NCBI GenBank assembly: GCA_012512505.1
Contig: JAAZEB010000198.1
Location: 1-51,412, forward strand
Source of the DNA: Armatimonadota bacterium
Lineage (GTDB): Bacteria; Armatimonadota; JAAZEB01
Direction: 5' to 3'
DNA length: 51,412 bases
Shown: positions 133 through 5,731 of the stretch, piece by piece
How the letters are laid out: every line of letters starts with the position of its first letter
How positions within the stretch are numbered: the first letter of the stretch is position 1
Made by a program: the position numbers and the translations under genes
Notes under the pieces: model-generated
What the model was told of the DNA's origin: nothing
The model's input: the letters and a program-made list of their open reading frames with translations, nothing else
Databases searched by the model: none

Positions 133-1866
133 CTAGGCGCTGCGGCGGTGCCCCTTGTTGGCGGTGAGGGTAACCCCGGGGCTGGACGCCACCGTGTGCG
201 GCTGCGCCACCACGTCGAAGCCGAGCTCCTCCGCTTTGCGTACGAAGTACTCGACGTTCTCCGAGTTGGTCCGGTCGCCCAGGGTCACGCGGTCGTAAGC
301 GTGTTCGAGGGCGATAATGATCGTTTCAGCCATACAGGCTGGGATGTTCCCCGGCCCAAAACCGAGATCGAGGTGGTAGCGGACAGCCTCTCCCGGCATG
401 CGGATAGTTCCGCCCGGGATCACCTTCACGTCGGGGCGTTCGGCGATGACGTTTGGATCCACGTCCGCGGGCCGGCCGATGTCGAAAACGAGCGCATTCT
501 CCTTCAGGTGTCGCGAGTAGATCACCGGGTTGGGGTCGGAGGTGGCGGTGAAGATGATGTCCGCCTCGATCAGCCGGTCGCACCCCACCATCGTCTCAAC
601 CCGCAGCAGCGGGTTGGCCTTCCGCAGCAGGCGGGCGACGTTCTCCAAACGCGCCACATCCGTGCCTACCATCAGCAGGTGGCGCATCATCGGAGCGAGG
701 TCGCGGCAGATCTTCACCCCAACCACGCCGTTGGCGCCAACCACCGCGACGGTAGAAGACTCGAGCTGGTCCGCGACCTGCGCCACCAGCGCGTTCAGGC
801 CGAGCCGGACGCTGCCGGCCGTTAGTGAGCCCCCGTTCGTCACCGGAATCGGCGACTGGCGCTGCACGGCCAGGCCCTTCTCGCCCACCACCGACATGAA
901 CGCCCCCAGGCCCACCACCGAGGCGCCCAATGCGTGCGCTACCTCAGCGGCCTGAACGGCGCGCTTCACGGCCAGTGGCTCGTCACCCTTGATCTGCTCC
1001 GGCAGCAGCGGCACCCCGATCAGGTAGCAGCGCGCCCGCCGGCCGTCGCGGGTGGTGATCCCCGTCACCACGTCGTTCTTCATCGGGCGAATGAAACGCA
1101 CCAGGAAGCGCACCACCGACACCGGCACCCAGCCGCGCAGCCAGGCGAAGCGCCGCGATTGCCACCAATCCTCCGGCACAAACGGGTGGATCACGAAGGC
1201 ACAGGCCACCTCGTCGTCATCAATGTTGGCCAGCGGCACTCGCTCGCCGATGCGCACCTCGGTGCCGTCCAGCAGCCGGCCGATGTTCTCCTTGTGTTTC
1301 CAGACCACGAACAGGAAGGTGGCCAGCGCGAAGAGGCGGTAGGGGCTCTCCAGCGGCACCACCCACACGGTGACCGCCAGCGTTCCGGCGCCTGCCAGCG
1401 ACGCCACCGAGGCATAGCGGGTCGCCACCCGCGTCGCGTACCAAATGCACACCGCCAGCGGCAGCATCCAGGGCGGGATCGCCCCGGTGAGCGTCAGGCC
1501 GAGAAACGACCCCAGCCCCGTCGCCACTGCCTTCCCGCGGGAAAACTTTCGCTCTTTAATATAGAAGAATATAGAGTAGGCGTGGCCCAGCGAGGCCGCC
1601 ATTGCCGTGGCGACCACTGCCCAGGCAGACGCGGTGGTGTAGTGCGCCACCAGGACGGGGCCGAGGCTCTTGGCGGCATCGAGGAGCAGGCAAACCCCGG
1701 CGGTGCCGCGCCCGGCGACGCGCGCGACATTGGACATGCCGATGTTGTGGCTGCCATAATCGCGAATATCGATGCCCCGCAACGCCTTGACCAACAGGTA
1801 GCCGAAGGGGACCGATCCAGCGAGGTAGCCGAGGAGAACAACCGCTGCAGCAGACAGCCCTTGCAT
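133..1866 (-). CDS. plsY: PlsY glycerol-3-phosphate acyltransferase fused to acyl-ACP-reductase-like dehydrogenase
   Basis: 577 aa, more than twice the usual PlsY length (about 200). Residues 1-205 are a multi-helix PlsY domain: motif 1 GSHNIGMSNVAR (from 38), motif 2 GHAYSIF...RGKAVATGLG (94-119, where the usual GGKG is changed) and motif 3 HKENIGRLLDGTE (191-203). PlsY moves acyl groups from acyl-phosphate to sn-1 of glycerol-3-phosphate at the inner membrane. From about residue 216 the protein resembles cyanobacterial long-chain acyl-ACP reductase and related predicted amino-acid dehydrogenases: GLGAFMSVVGEKG (320-332), a Rossmann motif VVGANGVVG (375-383) and PACMAET with Cys511, which aligns by eye with the acylated cysteine of that enzyme. 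Aldehyde or alcohol formation by the second half is inferred. The ATG lies directly behind a strong promoter with no Shine-Dalgarno. It is divergent from tyrS. Confidence 0.85.
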   Translation of the reverse strand: MQGLSAAAVVLLGYLAGSVPFGYLLVKALRGIDIRDYGSHNIGMSNVARVAGRGTAGVCLLLDAAKSLGPVLVAHYTTASAWAVVATAMAASLGHAYSIFFYIKERKFSRGKAVATGLGSFLGLTLTGAIPPWMLPLAVCIWYATRVATRYASVASLAGAGTLAVTVWVVPLESPYRLFALATFLFVVWKHKENIGRLLDGTEVRIGERVPLANIDDDEVACAFVIHPFVPEDWWQSRRFAWLRGWVPVSVVRFLVRFIRPMKNDVVTGITTRDGRRARCYLIGVPLLPEQIKGDEPLAVKRAVQAAEVAHALGASVVGLGAFMSVVGEKGLAVQRQSPIPVTNGGSLTAGSVRLGLNALVAQVADQLESSTVAVVGANGVVGVKICRDLAPMMRHLLMVGTDVARLENVARLLRKANPLLRVETMVGCDRLIEADIIFTATSDPNPVIYSRHLKENALVFDIGRPADVDPNVIAERPDVKVIPGGTIRMPGEAVRYHLDLGFGPGNIPACMAETIIIALEHAYDRVTLGDRTNSENVEYFVRKAEELGFDVVAQPHTVASSPGVTLTANKGHRRSA

Positions 1867-1942: not shown

Positions 1943-1987
1943 GCAAGCACGCCCCCTGGGCGACACGATGTGAGAGTGAGCGTTGGA

Positions 1988-3235
1988 GTGAGTAACGTCT
2001 TCCAGTTGCTGCGTGAGCGGGGCTACATTGCCCAGACCTCGGATGATACCGCCGTGGAGGCGTTGTTGTCTGGACAGACCACCCTCTACGAGGGGTTTGA
2101 TCCGACCGGCCGGTCGCTGCATATCGGGCACCTGCTGTCGCTGATGGCGATGCACCACCTGCAGCGCGCCGGGCACCGCGTCCTTTTCCTGCTGGGAGGG
2201 TTCACCGCCATCGTGGGTGATCCAACCGGCAAGTCGGAAACCCGCCAGTTCATCACCCCGGAGGAGGTGCGCGCCAACGGCGAGGCGATGCGCCAGCAGG
2301 TACAGCGCCTCGGCCTCCTCGACTTCGAGGGCTCGACCAACCCAGCGGTGATGCTAAACAACTACGACTGGCTGGACATGAAGCTCTCCGACTACATGCT
2401 CAGCGCCGCCCGCTACTTCAGCGTGAACCGCCTGCTCACTCACGAGACTTACCAGGAGCGCCTCAACCGCCAGGAGCACCTCTCCTTGATGGAGTTTCTC
2501 TACTCCACCCTGCAGGGCTACGACTACCTCTACCTCTACCAGCACCAGGGGTGCCGGCTGCAAATCGGCGGCAACGACCAGTGGCGCAACATCCTTGACG
2601 GCGTGGAGCTGATCCAGTACGTGCTCGGCGAGCAGGCCTACGCGATGACCTTCCCGCTGCTGCTCGACCCCAGCGGCCAGAAGATGGGCAAGACCTCCAC
2701 CGGAATGCGCGTGTGGCTCGATCCCGAACGCACCTCTCCCTTCGAGTACTACCAGTACTGGGTGAACACGCCCGACCAGGACCTGGACCGGAACCTGCGC
2801 CTGTTCACCTTCCTGCCGCTGGAGGAGATCGCCGCGATCACCGCCGGCCACCCGCGCGAGGCCCAGCACCGCCTCGCCTATGAGGCCACGAAGATCGTCC
2901 ACGGCGCGGAGGCCGCCGAACGCGCCCAGGCGGATGCCCGCTCCGCCTTCGCCGCGCAGGCCGCCTTGCCCGCCGACGTGCCCACCGTGCACCTGAGCAG
3001 CGCGGAACTGGCCGAAGGCGTCCGCCTGGTCAACGCCCTGGGCGACAGCGGCCTGGTGAAGTCACGCGGAGAGGCCCGGCGCCTCATTCAGCAGGGGGGC
3101 GTGCGCCTTTGGGACGAGCGCGTCACCGATGTCGACCGCACCTTCTCCCCGGACGATTTCCGCGAGGCTGATGGCGTCCGGGCGGCCCTCCTGCGCGCCG
3201 GCAAGGGGAAAGTACTCAAGGTATTGCTTAGCTGA
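1988..3235 (+). CDS. tyrS: Tyrosyl-tRNA synthetase
   Basis: Class I aminoacyl-tRNA synthetase that charges tRNA-Tyr in the cytoplasm; 415 aa, normal for bacterial TyrS. The catalytic domain carries HIGH in SLHIGHLLSLM (about residue 45) and a KMSKS variant KMGKT followed by the conserved STGMRVWLDP. Tyrosine-pocket sequence GGNDQWRNI is present. The C-terminus is an S4-like RNA-binding domain (LVKSRGEARRLIQQGGVRL). Several GTG codons lie in frame near the start. GTG at 1988 gives the family-typical SNVFQLLRERGYIAQ N-terminus and has GAGAGTGAG seven bases upstream, so it is preferred over GTG 1970. It is monocistronic and convergent with the hemerythrin gene. Confidence 0.95.
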   Translation: MSNVFQLLRERGYIAQTSDDTAVEALLSGQTTLYEGFDPTGRSLHIGHLLSLMAMHHLQRAGHRVLFLLGGFTAIVGDPTGKSETRQFITPEEVRANGEAMRQQVQRLGLLDFEGSTNPAVMLNNYDWLDMKLSDYMLSAARYFSVNRLLTHETYQERLNRQEHLSLMEFLYSTLQGYDYLYLYQHQGCRLQIGGNDQWRNILDGVELIQYVLGEQAYAMTFPLLLDPSGQKMGKTSTGMRVWLDPERTSPFEYYQYWVNTPDQDLDRNLRLFTFLPLEEIAAITAGHPREAQHRLAYEATKIVHGAEAAERAQADARSAFAAQAALPADVPTVHLSSAELAEGVRLVNALGDSGLVKSRGEARRLIQQGGVRLWDERVTDVDRTFSPDDFREADGVRAALLRAGKGKVLKVLLS

Positions 3236-3337: not shown

Positions 3338-3898
3338 TCAGGCCGCTACCTTCAGGTAGGTATCGCGCAGGGTGTCGATCAAGGCGTGATACTGCTCGTG
3401 GACGCCCGGCCCGATCCGCTCCGCCTCCACCCGGTCGAACTCGCGCGCCAGGCGCTCGTGCTCCTGGGGTGGGAGCGCCTGCTCGGCCATGGTGAACAAG
3501 ACCAGGTTCTCCTTGTCGATGTGGGCGCGCAGCAGGTGGACGTAGCCACGGGCATCCGCCGCGAACTCGTGCTCGCCCCCCTGCCCGGCGCGCATCCGTG
3601 CCAGCGCCTCGCCCATCCCCTGGATGTAGCGCCGCCCCTCGTCGTGCTCCATCCGCATCACCGCAGTCGGCCCCCCATTGCGCGGGAAGCCGGCCGCCTC
3701 CAGCGCCGGGAAGAGGTGCTCCTCCTCTTTGCCATGGTGGCACTTGTCGGCGAAGGTCCGCAGGAAGTCGAGCACCTGCCCGGCGTGCTCGAGGTTGACG
3801 GCCCGCCCCGCCGCCGCGTCCTCGGCCATCTGTTCCAGCACCGCCAACACCGTCAGGATCCCCTCGTGCTCGTCGCGAAGCTGTTGCGTTGCGTACAT
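3338..3898 (-). CDS. Hemerythrin-like HHE domain protein
   Basis: 186 aa, all-helical, with the His/Glu spacing of the HHE cation-binding fold: LRDEHEGIL near residue 10, KCHHGKEEEHLFP near 55, RMEHDEGRRYI near 85 and LRAHIDKENLVLF near 125. Such proteins bind a di-iron centre and O2 or NO, or act in iron and NO/oxidative-stress handling; the ligand here is unknown. No signal peptide or membrane segment, so it is cytoplasmic. AAAGGAG eight bases before the ATG is a strong ribosome-binding site. Upstream are a TACAAT -10 (3929-3934) and a Crp/Fnr-type palindrome centred near -42, suggesting activation by a Crp/Fnr-family regulator. Confidence 0.88.
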   Translation of the reverse strand: MYATQQLRDEHEGILTVLAVLEQMAEDAAAGRAVNLEHAGQVLDFLRTFADKCHHGKEEEHLFPALEAAGFPRNGGPTAVMRMEHDEGRRYIQGMGEALARMRAGQGGEHEFAADARGYVHLLRAHIDKENLVLFTMAEQALPPQEHERLAREFDRVEAERIGPGVHEQYHALIDTLRDTYLKVAA

Positions 3899-3956: not shown

Positions 3957-3972
3957 TGTGACTCAGGTCACG
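3957..3972 (-). promoter_or_regulatory. Crp/Fnr-type operator upstream of the hemerythrin gene
   Basis: Near-perfect palindrome TGTGACTCAGGTCACG, that is TGTGA-N6-TCACG. Its core TGAC-N4-GTCA also fits Dnr/NnrR-like sites. The TACAAT -10 at 3929-3934 (minus) predicts a start near 3922, putting the operator centre close to -42, the class II activation position. There is no good -35, as expected for an activator-dependent promoter. The site overlaps the last codons of rqcH. Confidence 0.5.
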
Positions 3973-5731
3973 CCAGACCCGGCTCGACGTGGAGAGTTTT
4001 CTCGTGGGTGTACTGGACGGTGCCGGGTGGGGAGCCACGGCGCTTGACGACGTACTTGCGCAGGGTGTAGTCGACCGGCACCAGACGGGAGTGCTTGGCG
4101 GTGCTGTGGCGGGCGCACAGCCGGGCCGCCTCCAGCAGCACCGCGTGGGGCACGCGCTCCGGGTGCCTGCCGGTGCGGATGACAACGTGGGCGGAAGTGA
4201 TGCCGCGGGCATGCAGCCAGATGTCGTCCGGGTCGGCGACGCGGGTGGTGAGGTGGTCGTTCTCGGTGGCGTTGCGGCCGAGGAGCACCTCGAAGGCGCC
4301 GAGCTGCCGGCACTGAACGCCGGGGCTCTCCGCGGCGCGGCGCGGCACCGGCGCCGGGCGGCGCTCGCGGAAGAGGCCCAGCTCGTCTAGCAGCGGCGCC
4401 ACCGCCTCCAGCTCCGGCATCGTGGTGGCTGTCTCCACTTGCGGGCGCACCGCCTGCAGCCGCTCCAGGCGGGCCTGCTCTTCCTCCCACTGCCGTTCCA
4501 GGTGCGGCACCGCGTCCACCAGCTTCCGCGCCCGCTTGAACCGCTTCTCCGCCTGCTCTTGCGCCGGCACCGCCGGGTCGAGGGTGAGCGTCACCTCGTG
4601 CTGCTCCGGGTCGTAGAAGTCAACGACGGTGATGCGCTCGGCGCCACGCGGGATGCGCCCCAGGTTGGCGAGGAGCAGGGTGGCCTCGCGCTCCAGGTTG
4701 GGAGCCGCGCGCGCGGCCTCGGTGCCCTCCTCCGCCTCACGGATGCGCCGTTGAGAGAAGCGCACCGCGTCGTCAAGGGCGCGCAGGTACTGCCGGCGCC
4801 GCCCTTCAAACGCCTCGTGGGCAATTCGGTAGGCGAAATAGGCTGCCAGTGCCTCGCTGGCACTGGCGGCGGGCTGCCTCGATCCACCGGCCGGCACCGG
4901 GTCATCCGGCAGAAACGAAACCCCCACCGGCACCCCGCGCGCGTCGAGGAGCACGGCCGGCGCGTAGGTGCTGGGGTCGGCCACGGCGCGCAGGGCCTCC
5001 GCGAGGCAGGTGGGGTCGGCGCGATCACAGCGGCGCCGGATGGCCGCCAGCGCCGTCGGACCCAGCGGATAGGCGCCCAGGAGGCGCTCGTCCAGGGAGG
5101 CCGACGGCGCCTCTGCCAGCAGTGCCGCGACGCTTTCCGGGGTGGCGGCCGCGGGATCGGCCCGGCGGCCGGTGGGCGGCGGGGTGTAGGGCACGCCGGG
5201 GTGAACGGGGCGCAACCGGCTCTCGCGGCTGCTCACCCGCTTGATGGCATCGAGGACCGTGCCTTCGGCGTTGAGGAGCATCAGGTTGCTGTGCTTCCCC
5301 ATCGCCTCCAGCACCAGGCACACCTCCGTCTCCGCGTAGCGGAAGGTGAGGCGCAGCACCCGGTCGAACCCAATCTGCCGCGCCGCGACCAGGATGGCGC
5401 CCTTCAGGTGCTTGCGCAACAGCATGCAGAAGGCCGGCGGCCCACCCCGGTCGGTGGCGGCGCGGGATGGCTCGTCGACCGGAGGTGGCGCCATGGGCGT
5501 CGGGGCTGGGAGAGCCGGCTGGTCTGGCGCGGCCGGCCGGCGGGGTGGGAGGAAGTGGGCGCGGGCGTGGCGAGCATGGACCGACAGCAGGAGATGGCGG
5601 TTCCGGCCGCTAGCCCGGAGGGTGAGCACGACCGTCTCTGCCTCGGGCTGCAGCACCTGCTGCACCTGCCCGCCGGCGCAGGCGTCGATCTCCGCGGCCA
5701 CCGCCGCCATCCCCATGCTGTCGAAGCTCAC
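3968..5731 (-). CDS. rqcH: RqcH / NFACT family ribosome-quality-control protein
   Basis: 587 aa. RqcH binds obstructed 50S subunits carrying peptidyl-tRNA and recruits tRNA-Ala for C-terminal alanine tailing; older names are FbpA or fibronectin-binding protein. An N-terminal NFACT-N domain contains the conserved Asp-Arg pair (GFDRVLRLTF, D123-R124), followed by a charged helical or coiled-coil middle (about 280-430) and a C-terminal NFACT-R/DUF814 domain (DPDDIWLHARGITSAHVVIR onward, about 490-575). A Pro/Ala-rich stretch at about 62-99 is extra relative to the family. The start is GTG 5731, giving the typical MSFD N-terminus. The gene sits 10 bases after ilvD, probably in the same transcript. 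Confidence 0.9.
   Translation of the reverse strand: MSFDSMGMAAVAAEIDACAGGQVQQVLQPEAETVVLTLRASGRNRHLLLSVHARHARAHFLPPRRPAAPDQPALPAPTPMAPPPVDEPSRAATDRGGPPAFCMLLRKHLKGAILVAARQIGFDRVLRLTFRYAETEVCLVLEAMGKHSNLMLLNAEGTVLDAIKRVSSRESRLRPVHPGVPYTPPPTGRRADPAAATPESVAALLAEAPSASLDERLLGAYPLGPTALAAIRRRCDRADPTCLAEALRAVADPSTYAPAVLLDARGVPVGVSFLPDDPVPAGGSRQPAASASEALAAYFAYRIAHEAFEGRRRQYLRALDDAVRFSQRRIREAEEGTEAARAAPNLEREATLLLANLGRIPRGAERITVVDFYDPEQHEVTLTLDPAVPAQEQAEKRFKRARKLVDAVPHLERQWEEEQARLERLQAVRPQVETATTMPELEAVAPLLDELGLFRERRPAPVPRRAAESPGVQCRQLGAFEVLLGRNATENDHLTTRVADPDDIWLHARGITSAHVVIRTGRHPERVPHAVLLEAARLCARHSTAKHSRLVPVDYTLRKYVVKRRGSPPGTVQYTHEKTLHVEPGLA

Follow-up and report, generated by a model that had tools for sequence, protein, structure and literature searches.

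A gene fusion of a PlsY acyltransferase and an AAR-like reductase domain in Armatimonadota

PlsY is the enzyme that starts membrane-lipid synthesis, while enzymes of the acyl-ACP reductase (AAR) family turn a fatty-acyl thioester into a fatty aldehyde. In the analyzed window, the entire 51,412-nucleotide stretch of an Armatimonadota contig, relatives of both are encoded by one gene, and since gene fusions often join partners from one pathway, the locus raises the question of what these two activities could have in common. The two parts are known and their domain architecture is new; no description of a PlsY-AAR fusion was found in the literature searched.

An intact frame joins two recognizable folds

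The fusion gene and its domains are located as follows.

133..1866, minus strand: plsY-AAR fusion gene, 577 aa (intact ORF, profiles, AlphaFold2 model, five further genomes)
1243..1866, minus strand: PlsY domain, residues 1-208, PlsY2-like subtype (PF02660, TIGR00023, Foldseek 5xj5)
1204..1242, minus strand: interdomain linker, residues 209-221 (77-85% identical to genomes G001 and G002)
208..1203, minus strand: AAR-like (acyl-thioester reductase) domain, residues 222-553 (PigE and TIGR04058 profiles, Foldseek, HHalign)

The frame runs on the minus strand from an ATG at 1866 to a stop at 133-135 and comprises 577 codons without an internal stop, whereas the plus strand carries two stops across the same interval. 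The GC content by codon position (0.68/0.47/0.86) forms a strong coding signature. The single uninterrupted frame described in the initial annotation is thus correct in its coordinates. The gene lies 132 bases from the contig end, as might be expected if an assembly error or frameshift had joined two neighboring genes; however, the frame is intact with its own start and stop, the same fusion occurs in five independent genomes at 50-73% identity, and the two genes are non-adjacent where they are separate, e.g., at 742581 and 2749879 in genome G022. Such an artefact, like mere chance, is therefore ruled out for practical purposes.

The Pfam family G3P_acyltransf (PF02660) spans residues 12-198 of the fusion protein (E 6e-42), and the TIGR00023 PlsY profile scores 139.5 bits, above its cut-off of 137.2, with three of the other fusions slightly under it at 131.8-133.4 bits. 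In the C-terminal part, the top profile match is the reductase part of PigE (NCBIfam; residues 268-551, E 9e-32), ahead of AcACP_reductase (TIGR04058; residues 273-531, E 2.7e-13). The resemblance to acyl-ACP reductase proposed earlier was thus recovered by profile search, but at 49.9 bits against an equivalog cut-off of 449.7 the domain does not qualify as a member of the AcACP_reductase equivalog. The profiles give PlsY and a reductase domain only, with no class III aminotransferase domain in the fusion protein, and its matches among solved structures are aaPlsY, PigE and cyanobacterial AAR.

AlphaFold2 modeling of the fusion was confident (pLDDT 89.8, pTM 0.85). The first-ranked Foldseek match of the model was AAR (6jzu; E 1.7e-16, TM 0.79 on target), followed by a carmabin biosynthesis domain, whose structure was solved with NAD and NADH, and then by aaPlsY (5xj5; TM 0.91 on target, rmsd 1.6), with the seven-TM fold present in the model. 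Profiles, alignment and Foldseek agree that the C-terminal domain is an AAR-fold thioester-reductase relative with the acyl-enzyme cysteine, Cys511 being aligned to AAR Cys294. An unrelated dehydrogenase lacking that cysteine, considered as an alternative identity for this half, can be dismissed, as matches to shikimate and glutamyl-tRNA reductases were weaker and confined to the Rossmann part.

Conservation of the two active sites

The PlsY half carries all three motifs that had been recognized by eye, as supported by column counts as well as by the profile matches.

1720..1755, minus strand: PlsY motif 1, residues 38-49, GSHNIGMSNVAR, with the positions of aaPlsY Ser35, Asn37, Thr41 (Ser45 here) and Arg45 (alignment column counts)
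1516..1587, minus strand: PlsY motif 2 region, residues 94-117, with His95, Lys112 and a loop-3 insertion (alignment, column counts)
1258..1296, minus strand: PlsY motif 3, residues 191-203, HKENIGRLLDGTE, with His191 and Asn194 (column counts)

In aaPlsY, the phosphate clamp consists of Ser35, Arg45, Lys104 and Asn180, and roles are also assigned to His177, His92 and Thr41 (PMC5700162). The side chains that contact glycerol-3-phosphate (G3P) or acyl-phosphate (Ser35, Thr41, Arg45, His92, Lys104, Ser142, His177 and Asn180) are kept in all six fusions, with the qualification that the Thr41 position is Ser in two of them, the window one included, and Thr in the others, and that Ser142 aligns to either Ser153 or Ser156, both invariant in the fusions. 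The fusion PlsY thus resembles aaPlsY (5xj5-5xj9) in fold, motifs and substrate-binding side chains; it differs in the loop-3 insertion, in motif 1 (GSH for GSG), in the "glycine-rich" loop (Gly102 to Arg, Gly105 to Ala) and in bearing a C-terminal reductase. The G3P clamp of aaPlsY, of which motif 3 close to the C-terminus forms part, opens toward the cytoplasm (PMC5700162), and the reductase is accordingly expected on the cytosolic side, with access to ACP and NAD(P)H.

In the PlsY tree, the fusion halves group with a second PlsY type, represented by G006 C38 and G023 C307 (support 94/99), placing the fusion PlsY by sequence in a divergent subtype; the tree includes one row, from G028, taken at wrong coordinates and appearing as a long outlier, and this grouping is less secure than that of the reductase domains. 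The second type (L086:9575-10285 in G006:C38; L092:5859-6500 in G023:C307) occurs in genomes that also have an ordinary PlsY. Its motif 1 reads GSHNIG or GSQSIG, the G006 copy has a loop-3 insertion, and the surrounding genes resemble glycosyltransferases and response regulators.

The reductase half contains the following sites.

718..744, minus strand: dinucleotide-binding motif, residues 375-383, VVGANGVVG (aligned to AAR GATGDIG 162-168)
661..663, minus strand: Thr402, at the AAR Arg189 position (NADPH 2'-phosphate; column counts, alignment to 6jzq)
334..336, minus strand: Cys511, acyl-enzyme cysteine position (aligned to AAR Cys294, 6jzu)
274..276, minus strand: Asp531, at the AAR Arg314 position (NADPH 2'-phosphate; column counts, alignment to 6jzq)

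Both catalytic features of the initial annotation hold: the Rossmann motif at 375-383 aligns to its AAR counterpart, and the ACMAE segment at 510-514 places Cys511 opposite Cys294 of the cyanobacterial enzyme. Gly377, Gly380 and Gly383 are invariant across the six fusions and 20 standalone Armatimonadota AAR-like proteins, and the Cys511 column is Cys in 6/6 and 20/20, respectively.

The cofactor site has diverged. In AAR, the 2'-phosphate of NADPH is held by Arg189, Arg193 and Arg314 (PMC7089970). The corresponding residues of the window protein are Thr402, Arg406 and Asp531, so the three-arginine arrangement is not preserved; profile alignment to 6jzq confirmed the placement of Thr402 and Asp531. 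The Arg189 column is Thr in every fusion and Arg in 19 of the 20 standalone proteins, while the Arg314 column is Asp or Glu in every fusion and Lys or Arg in 19 of 20. With two of three NADPH-phosphate residues altered throughout, the cofactor of the fusion cannot be taken for granted, and the loss of positive charge at the 2'-phosphate site suggests NADH. A related reductase, PtTamH, is NADH-specific and acyl-ACP-dependent (PMC9594044). By residue pattern and analogy, the fusion reductase probably uses NADH.

A rare fusion within a phylum that mostly keeps the genes apart

The fusion was identified in 6 of 291 Armatimonadota genomes examined, distributed over three families: the window genome, G001 and G002 (same family, 71-73% identity to the window fusion), G021 (53%), and G007 and G034 (50-52%). 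In all six it is the sole PlsY and the sole AAR-like gene detected; in the window's own genome, which is 96.9% complete, the whole query matched a single time and a second PlsY or AAR-like gene was not found. In most other genomes of the phylum, PlsY is a protein of its own and residues 222-553 match another, independent one; the two genes frequently lie on different contigs or a long way from each other.

Relative to G001 and G002, dN/dS is about 0.25 for the PlsY half and about 0.15-0.21 for the reductase half, values by which purifying selection acts on both; together with the conserved linker, these low ratios indicate that both halves are maintained. In a tree with the 20 standalone proteins, the six fusion reductases fall into a single clade (support 100/100), separated from the standalone reductases by about 4.7 substitutions per site, compared with 0.3-0.8 for tips within the standalone group. 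On this tree, the fusion reductase is a long branch of single origin. HHalign relates the fusion domain to the standalone family over its whole length (100% probability, E 1e-63). Invariant or nearly invariant positions common to fusions and standalone proteins number 46, among them Cys511, Glu514 and the three glycines, whereas 27 positions (near-)invariant in the standalone family are altered in every fusion. The standalone protein thus shares the catalytic Cys, the glycine motif and the entire domain with the fusion, but is a separate gene, keeps the NADPH-type Arg/Lys residues and usually has the gene of a 305-aa protein beside it.

In 28 of 51 other genomes, the standalone gene is located 3' of the 305-aa-protein gene, on the same strand and within 300 bases. 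The 305-aa protein (start KRVVSVSLGS...; L093:3438-4352 on G000:C273 in the window's genome, and e.g. L058:10435-11364 and L061:8473-9381) was detected in 57 of 61 genomes. Among these are five of the six that carry the fusion, and there its gene is located away from the fusion gene. The protein has no Pfam, NCBIfam or PDB sequence match; its model (pLDDT 94) gave a weak, Rossmann-like fold match (TM about 0.45). Its interpretation as a dead AAR paralogue, based on a Cys-to-Asn match seen by eye, was rejected, as HHalign found no relation and the fold match is weak. One whole genome, G011 (96% complete), yielded zero PlsY or AAR-like matches, yet has the 305-aa protein. In G037, the standalone gene (L063:9322-11190, G037:C43) lies just 3' of a gene that by eye resembles PlsC, itself preceded by genes reading, also by eye, as cmk and aroA. 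The 305-aa neighbor and the PlsC adjacency are leads tying the standalone family to lipid metabolism.

Pathway partners, alternatives and a possible function

PlsX was found in the window genome, G001, G002 and G007, and in two pieces in G021; it was not found in G034, which is 69% complete. Given PlsX, the PlsX/PlsY route is intact, the fusion being its sole detected PlsY, and PlsC-type acyltransferases are present in the fusion genomes. The neighbors of the fusion gene are housekeeping or variable, and neither a lipid operon nor a biosynthetic cluster was seen.

1970-3235: TyrS, adjoining the fusion; ordinary gene (G001 likewise has TyrS close to the fusion, L075)
3338-3898: hemerythrin-like protein; ordinary gene
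3968-5731: NFACT (RqcH-type) protein; ordinary gene

No aldehyde-using partner was found. ADO (PF11266) was detected in 0 of 31 genomes, with a positive S. elongatus control, and an alkane pathway for the fusion aldehyde was discarded. Ger-like ether genes (HGD-D, PF06050) occur in the window genome and G002 and are absent from G001, G007 and G021, i.e., they are not co-distributed with the fusion; the copy in the window's genome lies at G000:C46:8896-9933, and its relation to Ger is putative only. CarF (PF10520) gave no match, but no control matched either, and PF02913 is too general to tell an AGPS-type oxidase. The suggestion in the initial annotation of unusual ether, diol or alkyl lipids found no backing in these genomes: ADO is missing from the 31, and none of the candidate ether-lipid genes follows the distribution of the fusion. 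Its proposal of channeling between the two sites is likewise not supported: PlsY takes its acyl group from acyl-phosphate (PMC5700162) and AAR releases an aldehyde (PMC7089970), so that neither enzyme makes what the other consumes. The simpler idea would be an acyl pool that both halves share at the membrane.

Known systems offer partial parallels. Cyanobacterial AAR (6jzu; TIGR04058) shares with the fusion reductase the fold, the glycine-rich motif and the Cys294-position cysteine, while the fusion has about 22% identity to it, lies under the family cut-off, replaces Arg189 and Arg314 with Thr and Asp/Glu, lacks an ADO partner and is anchored in the membrane through PlsY. PigE, the closest relative of the reductase half, converts a thioester to an aldehyde (PMC8341465). 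PigE and TamH (COG5322 domain) belong to the same reductase superfamily and are likewise joined to another enzyme that processes lipid or alkyl compounds, in their case a PLP aminotransferase rather than a membrane acyltransferase. Proteins of this type show that the reductase and the enzyme of the following step are often one polypeptide (PMC10829540); PlsY cannot fill that place, because it consumes acyl-phosphate. The nearest functional analogy, likened by description, is Myxococcus ElbD and MXAN_1675, which pair acyl reduction with glycerolipid acylation in one protein through FAR1-like and AGPAT/GNPAT-like domains (PMC9131029), not AAR and PlsY. ElbD affects ether-lipid levels, contains ACS and ACP domains in addition and was soluble when purified (PMC9131029).

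Sequence and modeled structure establish the fusion, both folds, the conservation of both active sites, purifying selection, sole-copy status and PlsX; from these we infer activity of both halves, acyl-ACP as substrate and NADH use. We hypothesize, with a modest preference for this reading, that the fusion is a bifunctional membrane enzyme, combining a lysophosphatidate-forming acyltransferase with a fatty-aldehyde-forming reductase. The N-terminal half would use PlsX-made acyl-phosphate to acylate glycerol-3-phosphate and would be the acyltransferase for the first step of the cell's glycerolipid synthesis. In the cytosolic C-terminal half, Cys511 would accept the acyl group of a thioester, most likely of long-chain acyl-ACP. 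A nicotinamide cofactor, probably NADH, would then reduce it, yielding a fatty aldehyde at the surface of the membrane, beside the site of ester-lipid formation. An alkyl, ether or amine-type lipid component would be the likeliest use of that aldehyde. Against the bifunctional reading stand the long branch and the 27 altered residues, by which the reductase chemistry may have changed, as well as the low AcACP_reductase score and the failure to find an aldehyde-using partner; PlsY itself does not use aldehyde.

The same observations would fit an AAR-like half that does not reduce at all and instead senses acyl-ACP (or an acyl-enzyme) and NAD(P)H, adjusting PlsY activity to the redox state or to the supply of acyl groups. 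In its favor, the fusion branch is long, two of the three NADPH-phosphate residues are lost in fusions only, no aldehyde-using partner was found and the domain is joined directly to the committed step of lipid synthesis. However, Cys511, Glu514 and the glycine motif are kept among the family-invariant positions, the PlsY half evolves faster than the reductase domain and NADH-specific members of the fold exist, which makes a pure sensor unlikely. We consider it more improbable still that the reductase acts on another thioester, e.g., of an amino acid or polyketide, as PigE-type relatives do, with PlsY as a membrane anchor only. The lead of PigE over AAR among the profiles favors this, as do plasmid-borne relatives at class III aminotransferase genes, but there is no biosynthetic cluster around the fusion gene and the separate family is near-universal in the phylum, suggesting a core function. 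These plasmid-borne domains were observed in Rhodobacterales (H4-H8 in Leisingera, H10-H12 in Thioclava) and possibly belong to PigE-like pathways. A non-reductive, PlsX-like transfer of the acyl group from acyl-ACP via Cys511 to phosphate or glycerol-phosphate would explain the direct fusion to an acyl-phosphate-requiring PlsY and would make the weakened NADPH site no loss; with a full PlsX in four fusion genomes, on which grounds the fusion was rejected as a PlsX replacement, and an invariant dinucleotide motif, it is very improbable, and to our knowledge no AAR-fold member makes acyl-phosphate.

Extending the bifunctional reading, we tentatively propose, as a possibility more doubtful than bifunctionality itself, that the fusion may be a branch-point enzyme that splits acyl chains between ester-linked lysophosphatidate and aldehyde for alkyl (ether or amine) membrane lipids, in which case the near-universal AAR-like protein and its 305-aa neighbor would act in an undescribed Armatimonadota membrane-lipid pathway. 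The altered NADPH-phosphate site offers a sharp biochemical prediction, namely a preference for NADH. The fusion ties a phylum-wide reductase family, without an assigned role there, to membrane-lipid synthesis; if the reductase domain is active, fatty aldehydes would arise within core glycerolipid synthesis in bacteria that lack ADO, and a search for non-ester lipids in Armatimonadota would have a testable starting point.
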